Source: Gammaproteobacteria bacterium
GTDB taxonomy: Bacteria; Pseudomonadota; Gammaproteobacteria; Steroidobacterales; GCA-2729495
NCBI GenBank assembly: GCA_016874095.1
Contig: VGVH01000004.1
Span: 1 to 64,000 of the forward strand
Reading direction: 5' to 3'
Length of the DNA stretch: 64,000 nucleotides
Under the pieces are notes generated by a model. It did no database searches and was not told where the DNA came from. It was given only the letters and a program-made list of their open reading frames with translations. Position numbers and translations under genes: made by a program. This document shows, piece by piece, positions 9,221-14,887 of the stretch; position 1 is the first letter of the stretch, and the number at the start of each line of letters is the position of its first letter.

Positions 9221-11104
9221 GTGACGGGTTCCACACGCTCGACCTTCGGTCGCCTGGGCCTGCTTGCCCTGGCGGTGCTTTTCATCGTCGCGGTCACGCT
9301 TTCGAACCGCATTCTGCGCGGTGCGCGGCTCGATCTCACCGAGAACCAGCTCTACACGCTGTCTGAGGGCACGGTGCGCGTACTGGGCGCGATCGAAGAG
9401 CCGCTCAACCTCTACTTCTTCTATTCGGACAAGGCCACGACGGACATTCCCTACCTGCGCTCCTACGCGGATCGGGTGCGGGACACGCTGCGGGAGTTCT
9501 CGCAGCACGCGCAGGGCAGGATCACGGTGACCGAGGTCGATCCCATCCCGTTCTCGGACGAGGAGGACCAGGCCACGCAATTCGGCCTGCAGGGCGTGCG
9601 CCTCGACAACTCGGCAGATGCCGTGTTCATGGGCATTGCCGGCGCGAACAGCGTCGGCGACGACGAGATCCTGCCGTTCCTGGATCCCGGCAAGGAAGCG
9701 CTGCTCGAGTACGAACTGGCGAAGCTGGTCTACTCGCTCGCCAACCCGAAGCGGCCCGTCGTGGGTTTGTTGTCGAGCCTGCCGATGAACGCTGGCTTCG
9801 ATCCGATGACGCAGCAGGTGCGCCAGCCCTGGACGATCACCAGCCAGCTGCGCCAGCTCTTCGAGCTGCGCGAGCTGCAGGCGAGCGCTGCCGCAATCGC
9901 CGACGACGTGCAGGTGCTGATGGTCGTGCACCCGAAGGGATTGCCGGAAAGCGCGCTCTACGCGATCGACCAGTTCATCCTGCGCGGCGGACGCGCAATC
10001 CTGTTCGTCGATCCATGGTGCGAGGCCGACCCCGGCGCCGGCGACCCGATGAACCCGGCAGGGGGGATGGCCAGCGGCGGGCGCAGCTCCAGTCTCGACC
10101 GGATCTTCGGAGCCTGGGGCATCGCCGTGGGCACGGACAATTTCGTGGGCGACGACGGCTACGCGCTGCAGGTCTACAGCCCGCAAGGTCAGCCGGTGCG
10201 CGACATCGGCTATGCAGGCATCGACAACACTGGCATCGACCAGGACGATGTCGTGACGGCCGGGCTGTCGCTCCTGCATCTCGGCTACGCCGGCGCGATC
10301 ACCCGCAGTGAAAACGCCCCTGCCGCCGTGACGCCGCTCGTCCGTTCGAGCGAAATCGCCGGCACCGTCGGCACGGCGGCGCTCGGGTTCATGAGCGACC
10401 CCGCGCTGTTGCGCCAGGGCTTCAAGCCGACCGGCGAGCGCTATACGCTCGCGGCCAGGATCACCGGTGATGTGCCGAGCGCATTCGCGGCCGGTCCGCC
10501 GGGTGGCGCCAGCGCCGGCGAAAAGGGGCATCTGGCCAAGGCCGCGAAAGCGATCAACGTCGTCGTCGTGGCCGACGCGGACCTGCTCGCCGACCGCATG
10601 TGGGTCCGTGCGCAGGACTTCTTCGGCCAGCGCGTTGCGAGCGCGTTCGCCAACAACGGCGATTTCGTCGTCAGTGCCATAGACAATCTCCTCGGCAGCA
10701 GCGACCTGATTGGCATACGCGGCCGGGCGAAGTTCTCGCGGCCGTTCAAGGTCGTCGAGGAACTCCGGCGGGGCGCCGAGGACAAGTTCCGGGTAACTGA
10801 GGAACAGCTGAAGCAGGACCTCGACGAGACCGAGCGGAAGCTCGGCGAACTGCAGGCCAGCCGCCAGGACGGCAATGCCCTCATCATGAGCCCGGAACAG
10901 GAAAAGGAAATCGAGGCCTTCCGCGAGAAGCGCGCGACGATCCGTCGCGAGCTGCGCTCCGTGCAACGCACGCTCGATCGTGACATCGAGCGGCTCGGCA
11001 ATCTGCTGAAGGCGGTCAACATAGGCCTCGTGCCGCTGCTCATCACGATAGTGAGCATAGTCGTGCTGATCGCACGCCGTCGCAGCCGGGGTGGCGCGGC
11101 ATGA
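9221..11104 (+). CDS. Gld family / GldG-like ABC transport auxiliary protein
   Basis: 627 aa; SNRILRGARLDLTENQLYTLSEGT near N-terminus and C-terminal TM; position after ATPase and permease. Confidence 0.82.
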   Translation: MTGSTRSTFGRLGLLALAVLFIVAVTLSNRILRGARLDLTENQLYTLSEGTVRVLGAIEEPLNLYFFYSDKATTDIPYLRSYADRVRDTLREFSQHAQGRITVTEVDPIPFSDEEDQATQFGLQGVRLDNSADAVFMGIAGANSVGDDEILPFLDPGKEALLEYELAKLVYSLANPKRPVVGLLSSLPMNAGFDPMTQQVRQPWTITSQLRQLFELRELQASAAAIADDVQVLMVVHPKGLPESALYAIDQFILRGGRAILFVDPWCEADPGAGDPMNPAGGMASGGRSSSLDRIFGAWGIAVGTDNFVGDDGYALQVYSPQGQPVRDIGYAGIDNTGIDQDDVVTAGLSLLHLGYAGAITRSENAPAAVTPLVRSSEIAGTVGTAALGFMSDPALLRQGFKPTGERYTLAARITGDVPSAFAAGPPGGASAGEKGHLAKAAKAINVVVVADADLLADRMWVRAQDFFGQRVASAFANNGDFVVSAIDNLLGSSDLIGIRGRAKFSRPFKVVEELRRGAEDKFRVTEEQLKQDLDETERKLGELQASRQDGNALIMSPEQEKEIEAFREKRATIRRELRSVQRTLDRDIERLGNLLKAVNIGLVPLLITIVSIVVLIARRRSRGGAA

Positions 11105-12099
11105 GCCAACGCACGCTCCTCGCCCTGCTGGCGACGCTCGCGGTGCTGGCCGCGCTTGCCATTGCGGTTTCGCTGTCGGAGCGCCAGGTTGAATCCGGCA
11201 CGGGCTCGCTGCTGCTGCCGGACCTCAAGGCCGGTTTGAACGACATCGAGCGTATCGTCGTGCGCACGGGCGGGGAGAAGGTCGTCGCCACACTCGTTCG
11301 CGCCAGGGACGGCTGGACCGTGACCGAGCAACAGGACTACGCTGCCGACATCGGCAGGATCCGCAAGCTGTTGCTCGCGCTTGCCGAGGCGAAAATTCTC
11401 GAGGAGAAGACATCCAACGCCGAGCTCTACGACCGCTTGAAGGTCGAGGACATTGCGCTCGCGACAGCCGGCGGCGTTGAAGTAGAACTGGCCAAGGGCA
11501 GTTCGTCGACGAAGGTCATCATCGGTCGCGTGCAGGGCGCGGGCGAGCGCTACTACGTACGGCGCTCCGGCGAGAAGCAGAGCTGGCTGGTGAAGGGCAA
11601 CCTGGATGCAGCCCGGGAAGCGAGCGGCTGGGTCGACAAGACGATCACCGACGTCGCGACGGAACGCATTCAGGCAGTGCGCATCGACTTCCCGGATGGC
11701 AGCGCGACGCAGCTCGTGCGGCCCGCCGACGGCTCCGTCGGTCTGAACCTTGCCGAGCTGCCCAAGGGACGCGAACTGGCCTGGCCCGGTGTCGCCAACG
11801 CCATCGGCGGTGCTCTGGCCGACTTGAGCTTCGACGCCGTCGAGCCCGCCGCCAAATTCGACCCGGACTCAGCCAAGCCGATCACAGCGCGCTTCGAGAC
11901 CAACGATGGCCTGGTCATCGTGGCCGAGACCTGGAAGCTCGCCAGCGGCGAGCGCACACGGTTCCGCGCCAGCGGCGATGAGAAAGCAGCGGCCGAAGCC
12001 GAGCGCATCAACACGCGAGTCGGGGCCTGGGTCTACGCGCTGCCCGACTACAAGCTTGATCACTTCACCAAGCGCCCCGACGACCTTCTGGCCCCCTAG
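11101..12099 (+). CDS. DUF4340 domain-containing protein
   Basis: Overlaps the stop of the GldG-like gene; N-terminal TM helix then L.P.L...LNDIERIVV typical of DUF4340 proteins in this operon. Confidence 0.78.
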   Translation: MSQRTLLALLATLAVLAALAIAVSLSERQVESGTGSLLLPDLKAGLNDIERIVVRTGGEKVVATLVRARDGWTVTEQQDYAADIGRIRKLLLALAEAKILEEKTSNAELYDRLKVEDIALATAGGVEVELAKGSSSTKVIIGRVQGAGERYYVRRSGEKQSWLVKGNLDAAREASGWVDKTITDVATERIQAVRIDFPDGSATQLVRPADGSVGLNLAELPKGRELAWPGVANAIGGALADLSFDAVEPAAKFDPDSAKPITARFETNDGLVIVAETWKLASGERTRFRASGDEKAAAEAERINTRVGAWVYALPDYKLDHFTKRPDDLLAP

Positions 12100-12167
12100 G
12101 TGCCGGGTCGCAGCTTCGCAGCTTTCGCCCGGCGAAAGCTGCGAAGCTGCGACCCGGCACCTAGGGG
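12093..12167. repeat. perfect 75-bp palindrome (37-bp arms, 1-nt centre at 12130) at a convergent gene junction
   Basis: CCCCTAGGTGCCGGGTCGCAGCTTCGCAGCTTTCGCC-C-GGCGAAAGCTGCGAAGCTGCGACCCGGCACCTAGGGG, checked base by base; first mismatch is 12092/12168. Confidence 0.97.
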
Positions 12168-14722
12168 CAGGCTGAGAGGCTGTTCACCCATGCGCTGAGC
12201 AATGCCTCGCCGTCGTCGTCTACGAGGGTGGAACCGAGTGGCGGCATGCCGGCGGAGTCGCGCCGCGCCATTCGCGCGATGACGACGGAGCTGCCCGCAA
12301 CTCCCGGTGCGATGAGCCGCGCGTTTGGCAGACCGAGGTCGCCAGCTGCGGGCAGCACGTTGCAGGTGTTGGTGCTGGCAAACAGCGTCGTGTAGCGCAG
12401 GTCCATGCTCGAAGGCGTCGGCCCGCCCGGCCGATGGCAGCCGGAGCAATTGCTGGACATCCAGGCGCGTGCGCGGTCAGCCAGCGGGGCGGCCGTGTTC
12501 GCCGGATTGGCCATGGTCGCGAGCGTGCTGGCCGGGCCCGGCAGCGGTGTCGAGAACATGCCGATGTGGTCCATCGTCTCGAGCTGGTTCGCCGTGCGCC
12601 CGGTCGTCGGGTAGGTGAAGCTGCGGTTGAGCTGGCGCGTATCGAGCCCGAGCGAGAAGTCAGCCACCGCCGTGTGGCACTGCAGGCATTGCGCCTCGCT
12701 CGGGAAGATCCATTGCTGCGTGCCGACCGTCTTGGTCTTGCCGCCGCGCACACGGGTTGCAGCGGTCTGTGCGTCGTTCCACTCGTAGGTGTATCCGGCC
12801 CAGGCACCGTCCGGATGGCGCATGAAGAGGCGGGTCTCCACCAGCTTCCCGGCCAGCGCGAAACTCTTCATCAGCACGGTGCCGTTCGGGAACGACCAGT
12901 CGGCTGTCGAGCGAGTTATCGTCGTGCTGTTCGGCAAACCGATGTGGCGGCTCTTGATCGCACCATCCGACCAGAACGGTGCGTTGATGTCGTAAGGCAC
13001 GAGTCCGCTCGCAGGCAATGTCGGATTCGCGGCGTTGACGCAGCCTGTCGCCGCGAGGTCGTCCGGCACCGGATCGGGATTGCCGCCGCCGCCCGAGGGC
13101 ACGAGCCTGTTGATCGTGCCGCCGTCGTAATCGGCGTAGTAGATCTCGCCATCTATACCGCGGGCGAAGTCAACGATGCCGTGCACCGTGTCGATCAGCT
13201 GCACGGCCGTGTAGCCGCCGGCGCCGTTGCTGGTCAGCGCCCAGATGCGGCCGGAACCGAAGTCACCGAACACGTAGCGCCCGGCCAGAGCCGGGATCGC
13301 CGTACCGCGGTACACGTCACCGCCCGTCACCGAGATATTCCCGTCAGTGCCGTATGGGTACTCGTACACCGGGTCGATATATGGAGGATTCGCGCAGCGG
13401 CTGGCGTTGAAGCCCAGAGTTCCCTCGCGGCAACTCCAGCCGTAGTTCCCACCCAGGTTGATCTGGTTGATTTCCTCGCGCTCCTTCTCGCCGACATCGC
13501 CGAGCCACAGGGCGCCGGTCTGCGAGTCGAAGCTCCAGCGCCAGGGATTGCGGAAGCCCCAGGCGTAGATCTCGGGACAGGCCTGCGCATTGCCTGTCGG
13601 CCCGCAGCGTGGATTCGGTCCGAAGGGATTGTCGGAAGGAATGTTGTAACCCGGTGTCGGGAACGCAACGCCGAGGACGTTGATGCGCAGCATCTTGCCG
13701 GCGAGGCGGGTCAGGTCCTGGCCACGATTGTTCGGGTCCTCGTTCTGGCTCGCATCTCCGATGCTGATGTAAAGCGAGTTGTCGGCGCCGAAGGCGATGT
13801 CACCACCCTTGTGCGTCCCGGTCGACTGGTCGACCCGCAACAGGATCTGCTCGGTCGATCCGGCGAGGGTCGGCGTCGTGGCGTTGTCGAGTATGAATCG
13901 CGAAATGCGCGATTCCTGCGCGGTACCCGTACCGGTGTAGGAGACGTACACCTCGCGTGTAGTGGGAAAGTTCGGGTGAAACGCGAGGCTGAGCAGGCCA
14001 CCGGAATTCGCAGCGTTGACCCGACCGGAGAGATCGAGCCAGGTCGACGTACCGCCCGGGTTTGCGGTGCTGAACACGCGGATGCGGCCGCTCTGCTCCA
14101 GCACGAACCAGCGGCTGCCGTCGCCCGGCGCCTGCAGTATTTTCGTCGGCGAAGAAAAATCCGGAGCGGCCGGATAGGCATCCACCGCGGTCACGCCGGT
14201 GGGCGCCGTGCCACGCGCCGGAGCGACGCAGCCGGCATTCGACGGGCGCGAATCGAGGCCGAAGGTCGCATCATCGTCGAGGATGGTGACCGTCGCGCTC
14301 GTATCCGGGAGATCGGCATTGACAGCGTCGCTCAACTCGAGCGTCAACGTCTCGTTGGATTCGACCAGCGTGTCGCCGATGACCGGCACGCTGATGACCG
14401 CCGAGGTTACGCCTGCCGGAAACGACAGTGTCCCGGAAGCGCTCACGAAATCCATGCCGGCGGTTGCCGTGCCCGCGGCGGTGGCCCATGAGACCGTCAC
14501 GTCCGCCGTGCCCACGTCGGACAGTGTCACGGCGATGGCGCGCGCGCTGGTACCGGTATTCCCCTCCTGCACGCTGGCATTGAGGATGCGAATCTCGAGG
14601 GCCGTAGCGTCCGGATCTTCGGCACCGCCACCCCCGCAGGCGGCAAGGGCAAGGACGTTCGCGCCCGCGAAAAGGACTCGCAGGCGGACGGATTCCGCGA
14701 TTCGACGGAGCAGTTGAGACAC
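12161..14722 (-). CDS. PQQ-type glucose/sorbosone dehydrogenase with N-terminal Calx-beta-like domain and C-terminal cytochrome c-like motifs; probable lipoprotein
   Basis: ORF 12161..14839; likely GTG start near VSQLLRRIAESVRLRV (start approximate); lipobox LALAACGGGG; Calx-beta pattern (TVSWATAAGTATAGMDF..GTLSFPAG..); dehydrogenase motifs GLLSLAFHPNF, GKMLRI, WGFRNPWRWSFD; two CxxCH motifs (CLQCH, CSGCH). Confidence 0.87.
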   Translation of the reverse strand: MSQLLRRIAESVRLRVLFAGANVLALAACGGGGAEDPDATALEIRILNASVQEGNTGTSARAIAVTLSDVGTADVTVSWATAAGTATAGMDFVSASGTLSFPAGVTSAVISVPVIGDTLVESNETLTLELSDAVNADLPDTSATVTILDDDATFGLDSRPSNAGCVAPARGTAPTGVTAVDAYPAAPDFSSPTKILQAPGDGSRWFVLEQSGRIRVFSTANPGGTSTWLDLSGRVNAANSGGLLSLAFHPNFPTTREVYVSYTGTGTAQESRISRFILDNATTPTLAGSTEQILLRVDQSTGTHKGGDIAFGADNSLYISIGDASQNEDPNNRGQDLTRLAGKMLRINVLGVAFPTPGYNIPSDNPFGPNPRCGPTGNAQACPEIYAWGFRNPWRWSFDSQTGALWLGDVGEKEREEINQINLGGNYGWSCREGTLGFNASRCANPPYIDPVYEYPYGTDGNISVTGGDVYRGTAIPALAGRYVFGDFGSGRIWALTSNGAGGYTAVQLIDTVHGIVDFARGIDGEIYYADYDGGTINRLVPSGGGGNPDPVPDDLAATGCVNAANPTLPASGLVPYDINAPFWSDGAIKSRHIGLPNSTTITRSTADWSFPNGTVLMKSFALAGKLVETRLFMRHPDGAWAGYTYEWNDAQTAATRVRGGKTKTVGTQQWIFPSEAQCLQCHTAVADFSLGLDTRQLNRSFTYPTTGRTANQLETMDHIGMFSTPLPGPASTLATMANPANTAAPLADRARAWMSSNCSGCHRPGGPTPSSMDLRYTTLFASTNTCNVLPAAGDLGLPNARLIAPGVAGSSVVIARMARRDSAGMPPLGSTLVDDDGEALLSAWVNSLSACP

Positions 14723-14887
14723 CGCTGGATTTCCTCGCGACTCACCGCCAGGCCGCACGCAACGCCCACACGACGACGGGCACAAGAATTGTAGCTGCCG
14801 GCGCACGATACCGTGATCGTGTCTCATCCTGGCGAGCATGCGTCGCAGCGCGACCCGAGCTGCTGTGCTGCGACGCAGTCGAGATTC

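Follow-up and report, generated by a model that had tools for sequence, protein, structure and literature searches.

The closest described systems are built around Y1/HUH transposases of the RAYT kind. In the TIRYT/TIRtron arrangement, a RAYT-like gene lies between long inverted repeats that are unrelated to GTAG REPs, and these repeats are also dispersed as singles, dimers and clusters, the motif GGGGWSAS being present in only some of the TIRs (PMC3733652). Subclass 2.1 of TnpA-Y1 corresponds to RAYT group 1, and neither automatic nor manual searches detected REP-like sequences near its genes (PMC6006769). REPINs are hairpin-forming inverted doublets that are mostly intergenic, are linked to one RAYT and probably move as a unit (Bertels and Rainey 2011, PMC3116915).

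The locus described here lies in a window of 64,000 nucleotides (C4:1-64000) of a MAG-like assembly of 2.80 Mb in 75 contigs. Its repeats and the long RAYTs of related genomes fit RAYT group 1 (subclass 2.1) and the TIRYT/TIRtron arrangement, a placement made by protein and repeat features. As in TIRtrons, a Y1 gene lies between long inverted repeats that have no relation to REPs, and dimers of these repeats are dispersed. The motif GGGGWSAS is not found in the ends, whose head is GGTGCCGG, but it is not strictly defining because the source gives it for some TIRs only. The present ends differ from TIRtron ends in this head and in a clade-specific tandem motif, and their dimers are near-spacerless palindromes with matched arms. 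The long RAYTs resemble subclass 2.1 in their length of about 290 aa, their C-terminal HTH/Bac_DnaA_C-like domain and their class 2 Y-x3-NP motif, whereas, in contrast to the survey of that subclass, inverted repeats enclose most of them here, and dispersed families are found for three or more of the motif lineages. An inverted hairpin doublet and a cognate RAYT in the same genome are shared with REPINs, but the half-unit is non-palindromic, lacks the 5' GTAG (GT[AG]G) tetranucleotide and does not fold by itself (z = +0.8 for a single half-unit, no better than shuffles), and the copies are few and clustered along the chromosome. The HUH core chemistry of the IS200/IS605 Y1 transposases is expected here, although the gene is single-copy, its ends are inverted rather than hairpin ends, and there is no multi-copy IS.

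A palindrome at the ends of two convergent genes

Positions 12093-12167 form a perfect palindrome of 37+1+37 bp, in which the arms (12093-12129 and 12131-12167) are 100% complementary around a C at 12130, so that the original prediction of a 75-bp palindrome was exact in coordinates and sequence. The runner-up in the window has an arm of 10 bp, and five shuffles gave arms of 9-10 bp. The RNA fold of the palindrome has an energy of -82.2 kcal/mol (z = -15.2). The predicted TAG stop codons of the DUF4340 gene (12097-12099) and of the glucose-sorbosone dehydrogenase (GSDH) gene (12161-12163, complement), the tandem 8-mer in the arm and the missing T-tract were all confirmed. The extent of the element needs to be narrowed. 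Comparison of nine full copies has placed the boundaries of the element proper at 12099-12161 (63 bp, GGTGCC...GGCACC), and the outer 6 bp on each side, CCCCTA and TAGGGG, are flank that is symmetric at the window site alone; the eight other full copies have 0-2 symmetric flank bases. The features are as follows.

11101-12099, plus strand: DUF4340 gene (PF14238), ending in ...DDLLAP and the stop
12093-12098, no strand: left symmetric flank CCCCTA, outside the repeated unit; supplies TA of the DUF4340 stop, the element supplying G
12099-12161, no strand: putative mobile element, a TIR-TIR palindromic dimer of 63 bp; the eight other full copies all have GGTGCC...GGCACC
12099-12125, plus strand: left half-unit, consisting of the head GGTGCCGG (12099-12106), GT, the tandem CGCAGCTT (12109-12116 and 12117-12124) and T; its first 18 nt are found exactly at 30 places in the genome, and it is identical at both ends of the RAYT gene
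12126-12134, no strand: variable centre CGCCCGGCG; TCACTAG, TCACCAG, TCATTAG, TCG, GAA, CA or nothing in other copies
12135-12161, minus strand: right half-unit, inverted and identical to the left one; head at 12154-12161
12162-12167, no strand: right symmetric flank TAGGGG, supplying TA of the minus-strand GSDH stop
12161-14839, minus strand: convergent Calx-beta/GSDH/cytochrome-like gene (PF03160, PF07995; PF13442 below the cut-off)

The minus-strand gene encodes an 892-aa protein in which Calx-beta, glucose/sorbosone dehydrogenase and a cytochrome-like C-terminus are fused. The DUF4340 ortholog of a related genome (G006) ends in ...EELLAP and its stop at the same place, and so the element lies at the natural 3' end of this gene. 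Comparison with an empty site is only indirect because the downstream neighbours of the orthologous DUF4340 genes differ from those in the window, and the relatives, with about 50% protein identity, are too distant for a clean one. The element contributes one base to each of the two stop codons. As a model only, the two genes may once have ended in CCCCTAGGGG, where the TAG stops of both shared the overlap CTAG, and the element would have entered after TA with TA repeated, leaving the proteins unchanged. It would have landed where the stops of the two convergent genes overlapped or nearly did, and would have given one base to each stop.

Dispersed half-units and their cognate transposase

A search with the 75-bp sequence has detected related palindromes and half-palindromes on many contigs of this genome. 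The 18-nt half-unit GGTGCCGGGTCGCAGCTT has 30 exact copies and none with one mismatch, while the same pattern read backwards as a control gave 2+2 matches at up to 3 mismatches. These half-units form nine full palindromes and partial copies, most of them intergenic, and the genome holds about fifteen sites besides the one in the window. The full palindromes have common 27-bp arms and differing centres, and in the copy on C9 each arm carries the same extra T. Outside the host record, the exact 18-mer gave 18 scattered single matches to unrelated phyla among 85,000 genomes, which are read as chance. Rfam returned sub-threshold matches only, mostly to microRNA-precursor families, in which any perfect hairpin scores. 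A literature search for GGTGCCGGGT retrieved no title on such repeats. The contig ends C25:35231-35364 and C28:1-118 overlap at a half-unit but are not identical, one of them having an additional partial tandem copy, which may reflect variation in the sampled population.

The search for a REP-associated transposase that the original prediction had proposed leads to C1:4268-5140, where a Y1/HUH gene (PF01797, with HxH and Y-x3-NP motifs) scores 89.7 bits against a cut-off of 80 for NCBIfam REP_Tyr_transpos. Inverted half-units bracket this RAYT gene at C1:4156 and 5166, the second overlapping the RAYT stop codon. Since the same half-units bracket the gene, the palindrome corresponds to a 1,011-bp element reduced to its two ends. 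The gene is single-copy, and elsewhere in the genome it matched only distant Y1 genes, one at C6 and one at C2. Its C-terminus gives a weak HTH match (PF13542, E 0.005), and relatives in the same tree match Bac_DnaA_C; a PDB sequence search with the protein gave no match. A second RAYT, of 161 aa, at C6:72872-73602 (L016) scores 129.7 bits to REP_Tyr_transpos and is flanked by classic REPs, GTAGGAGCGGCGCAAGCCGCGAC. When up to 3 mismatches are allowed, this orthodox GTAG REP, tied to the C6 RAYT, has 33 matches in the genome, on many contigs and none of them in the window.

Most full copies are found no more than a few bases from the end of a gene, six of the nine between convergent genes (expected 16%, p ~9e-4) and none between divergent ones, and the palindromes of G116, a genome of another family, are placed similarly. 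Because the gene calls come from a simple codon-usage script, single distances to gene ends are approximate. Coding sequence is often contributed by the element. The stop codon of a transporter gene at C1:4156 takes its G from a half-unit, and the last codons (...VPGRSFAAF) and the stop of an amidase gene (C1:6145-7584, minus strand) are supplied by an element. The gene at C22:1529-2563 reads into an element, from which it obtains a short C-terminal tail, ...RRCRVAASQL, and its stop.

The copies are also clustered. Excluding the ends of the transposase gene itself, 7 of 15 sites fall within C1:1-35000 (p ~3e-10 under uniform placement), several of them at junctions between consecutive genes. 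In G008, a genome in a single contig, another site is no more than 4 kb away for 24 of the 33 sites, compared with 2.2 expected, some of these clusters containing duplicated segments. The clustering is not simply an assembly effect because the orthodox GTAG REP is spread over many contigs, and local transposition is its likely cause. The copies in this genome show no clear target-site motif, no fixed target and no target duplication. A TGAC/GTCA extension is seen at the G116 ends; it possibly belongs to the end itself and not to a target.

Conserved heads and changing tandem motifs in related genomes

RAYT homologues are present in 20 of 40 genomes of the family, this one counted. Unguided local alignment of the upstream flank with the reverse-complemented downstream flank of long RAYTs has revealed inverted ends around nearly all of them, about 20 RAYTs with a C-terminal HTH, with GGTGCCGG as the common head, whose positions are invariant or nearly so in 20 end sequences. 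The same alignment found no such ends around short Y1 homologues without the C-terminal tail. The head is followed by a tandem 6-9-mer: CGCAGCTT, CGAAGTTT(T), TGGCTTA(T), TAGCTTTA, TTAGTTATT, TTCGG, TTTCTTAAG or TTTGATTA. Nine tandem-motif states, coded by eye and including two rows with long branches, require 8 changes on the RAYT protein tree, which is the minimum, and therefore each state is confined to one clade. The distance between tandem bodies correlates with that between C-terminal regions (Mantel rho 0.37, 0 of 1000 permutations), a modest correlation among 20 related sequences, and less with that between catalytic cores (0.15, p 0.077). Bac_DnaA_C matches the C-terminus of 17 of 25 long RAYT proteins.

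Among the genomes searched, each of the five that carry a TGGCTT-type RAYT has dispersed half-units of the TGGCTT type, and so does 1 of the 13 others. This one genome (G005) has 16 such half-units and no TGGCTT RAYT was found in it, which is read as loss or a gap in the genome. The strict palindrome pattern is uncommon elsewhere, occurring in 10 of 196 genomes of the order and 2 of 274 of the class (this one included), and a reversed control gave zero. G116 has 19 palindromes and a RAYT, all with the CGCACTTAT motif. A GGTGCCGGGTTTATTTTCC-like palindrome subtype, preceded by AAAA where read, has nearly the same sequence in G013, G014, G021, G026 and G404, genomes that span the family of the window and a more distant family of the class, and this near-identity suggests horizontal spread. 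In G008, several genes at C1 near 789804-793627 and 1397874-1403198 (L102, L104) are preceded, about 40-60 bp upstream, by half-units that all have one orientation. From the half-unit onwards, the stretches are 80-96% alike within and between clusters and are possibly gene cassettes; three of the proteins have no Pfam match.

The arms are concordant within individual elements. In G116, the mean number of differing positions is 0.17 between arms of one element and 0.79 between elements (0 of 100,000 permutations as concordant), a difference that partly reflects shared descent of the copies. In agreement with the original prediction, which took perfect symmetry as a sign of recent origin or active maintenance, the half-units are homogeneous and the G116 arms match better within than between elements. 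The centres TCACTAG, TCACCAG and TCATTAG are shared at three sites in this genome and GCGGAGC is common to three G116 sites, which argues that dimers are copied as units. Template-switch correction of arms at quasi-palindromes is described as an established process in E. coli (PMC7202029), and template switching is likely to keep the arms symmetric here.

Probable origin of the palindrome and proposed recognition by a transposase

Because the same half-units bracket the RAYT gene in inverted orientation, the palindrome is best explained as a miniature non-autonomous derivative, with a probability of about 0.87: two terminal inverted half-units around a loop of 0-9 bp, presumably mobilised in trans by the Y1/HUH RAYT with a C-terminal HTH encoded at C1:4268-5140. 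It was also proposed that the palindrome is a local bidirectional terminator or 3'-end stabiliser selected at the ends of these two convergent genes. The very stable hairpin, its position exactly at both stops and the excess of full copies between convergent genes are in its favour. Yet no terminator-like site, in the sense of a GC stem followed by a T-tract, was found at the palindrome, near-identical copies also lie between same-direction genes and at both ends of the transposase gene, and neither the copies nor their co-variation with the transposase are accounted for, which makes this reading improbable. If the palindrome does terminate transcription or stabilise mRNA, this would be a secondary effect and at most a by-product.

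The second earlier proposal, a dispersed REP-like element, was right in substance, given the many copies and the RAYT gene bracketed by the same half-units; what is not borne out is strict REP status, and the element belongs with the TIRYT branch instead. An orthodox REP/REPIN, that is, GTAG-tagged imperfect palindromes mobilised by a group 2/3 RAYT, would agree with the inverted, mostly intergenic and RAYT-linked doublets, but is very unlikely, as there is no GTAG/GTGG foot, the half-unit folds no better than shuffles and the genome's own orthodox REP looks quite different. This identity was rejected with two defining features, the GTAG foot and the self-folding unit, already lacking. An insertion sequence of the ordinary DDE type, or a MITE derived from one, would agree with terminal inverted repeats around a transposase gene, but the enclosed gene is a single-copy Y1/HUH transposase and there is no target duplication pattern, so that such an origin is scarcely to be expected. 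Least probable of all is a fold-back artefact of library preparation or assembly. Perfect symmetry in a MAG-like assembly would allow it, but nine full copies that differ in their flanks and in their partly asymmetric loops lie on C1, C4, C9, C10 and C22, and a chimera is unlikely with such copies on at least five contigs; in addition, the two flanks are intact, different genes, and related palindromes occur in independent genomes.

For the miniature element, a plausible mechanism is that the two half-units pair into a hairpin in single-stranded DNA, such as the lagging-strand template, and that the stem presents the tandem motifs as duplex to the C-terminal HTH. The HUH core would then read the GGTGCCGG head, cut the strand and rejoin it, and single-stranded DNA in the vicinity would receive the whole dimer, either copied or moved. 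A dimer would survive where it is harmless, which in this compact genome would be the short gaps of a few bases that separate genes. The arms would be held identical by template switching within the hairpin, or because one arm is copied from the other. These considerations lead to a tentative hypothesis, given slightly less than even odds, that group-1 RAYTs use a two-part address, in which the catalytic core recognises a fixed GGTGCCGG head and the C-terminal HTH a tandem array that changes fast, the array becoming duplex only once half-units pair in single-stranded DNA. Dimers would then be the functional substrate, and each clade would have a private miniature family.

Long HTH-bearing RAYTs of group 1 are common, and their role has been open because a broad survey tied no REP-like repeat to them; their cognate repeats are now clear. 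Since the head is conserved and the tandem motif tracks the C-terminus, recognition can be tested directly by swaps. Gene ends can carry many perfect palindromes, which supply stop codons or short protein tails, and the idea of arm copying suggests a reason for the lasting identity of their arms.
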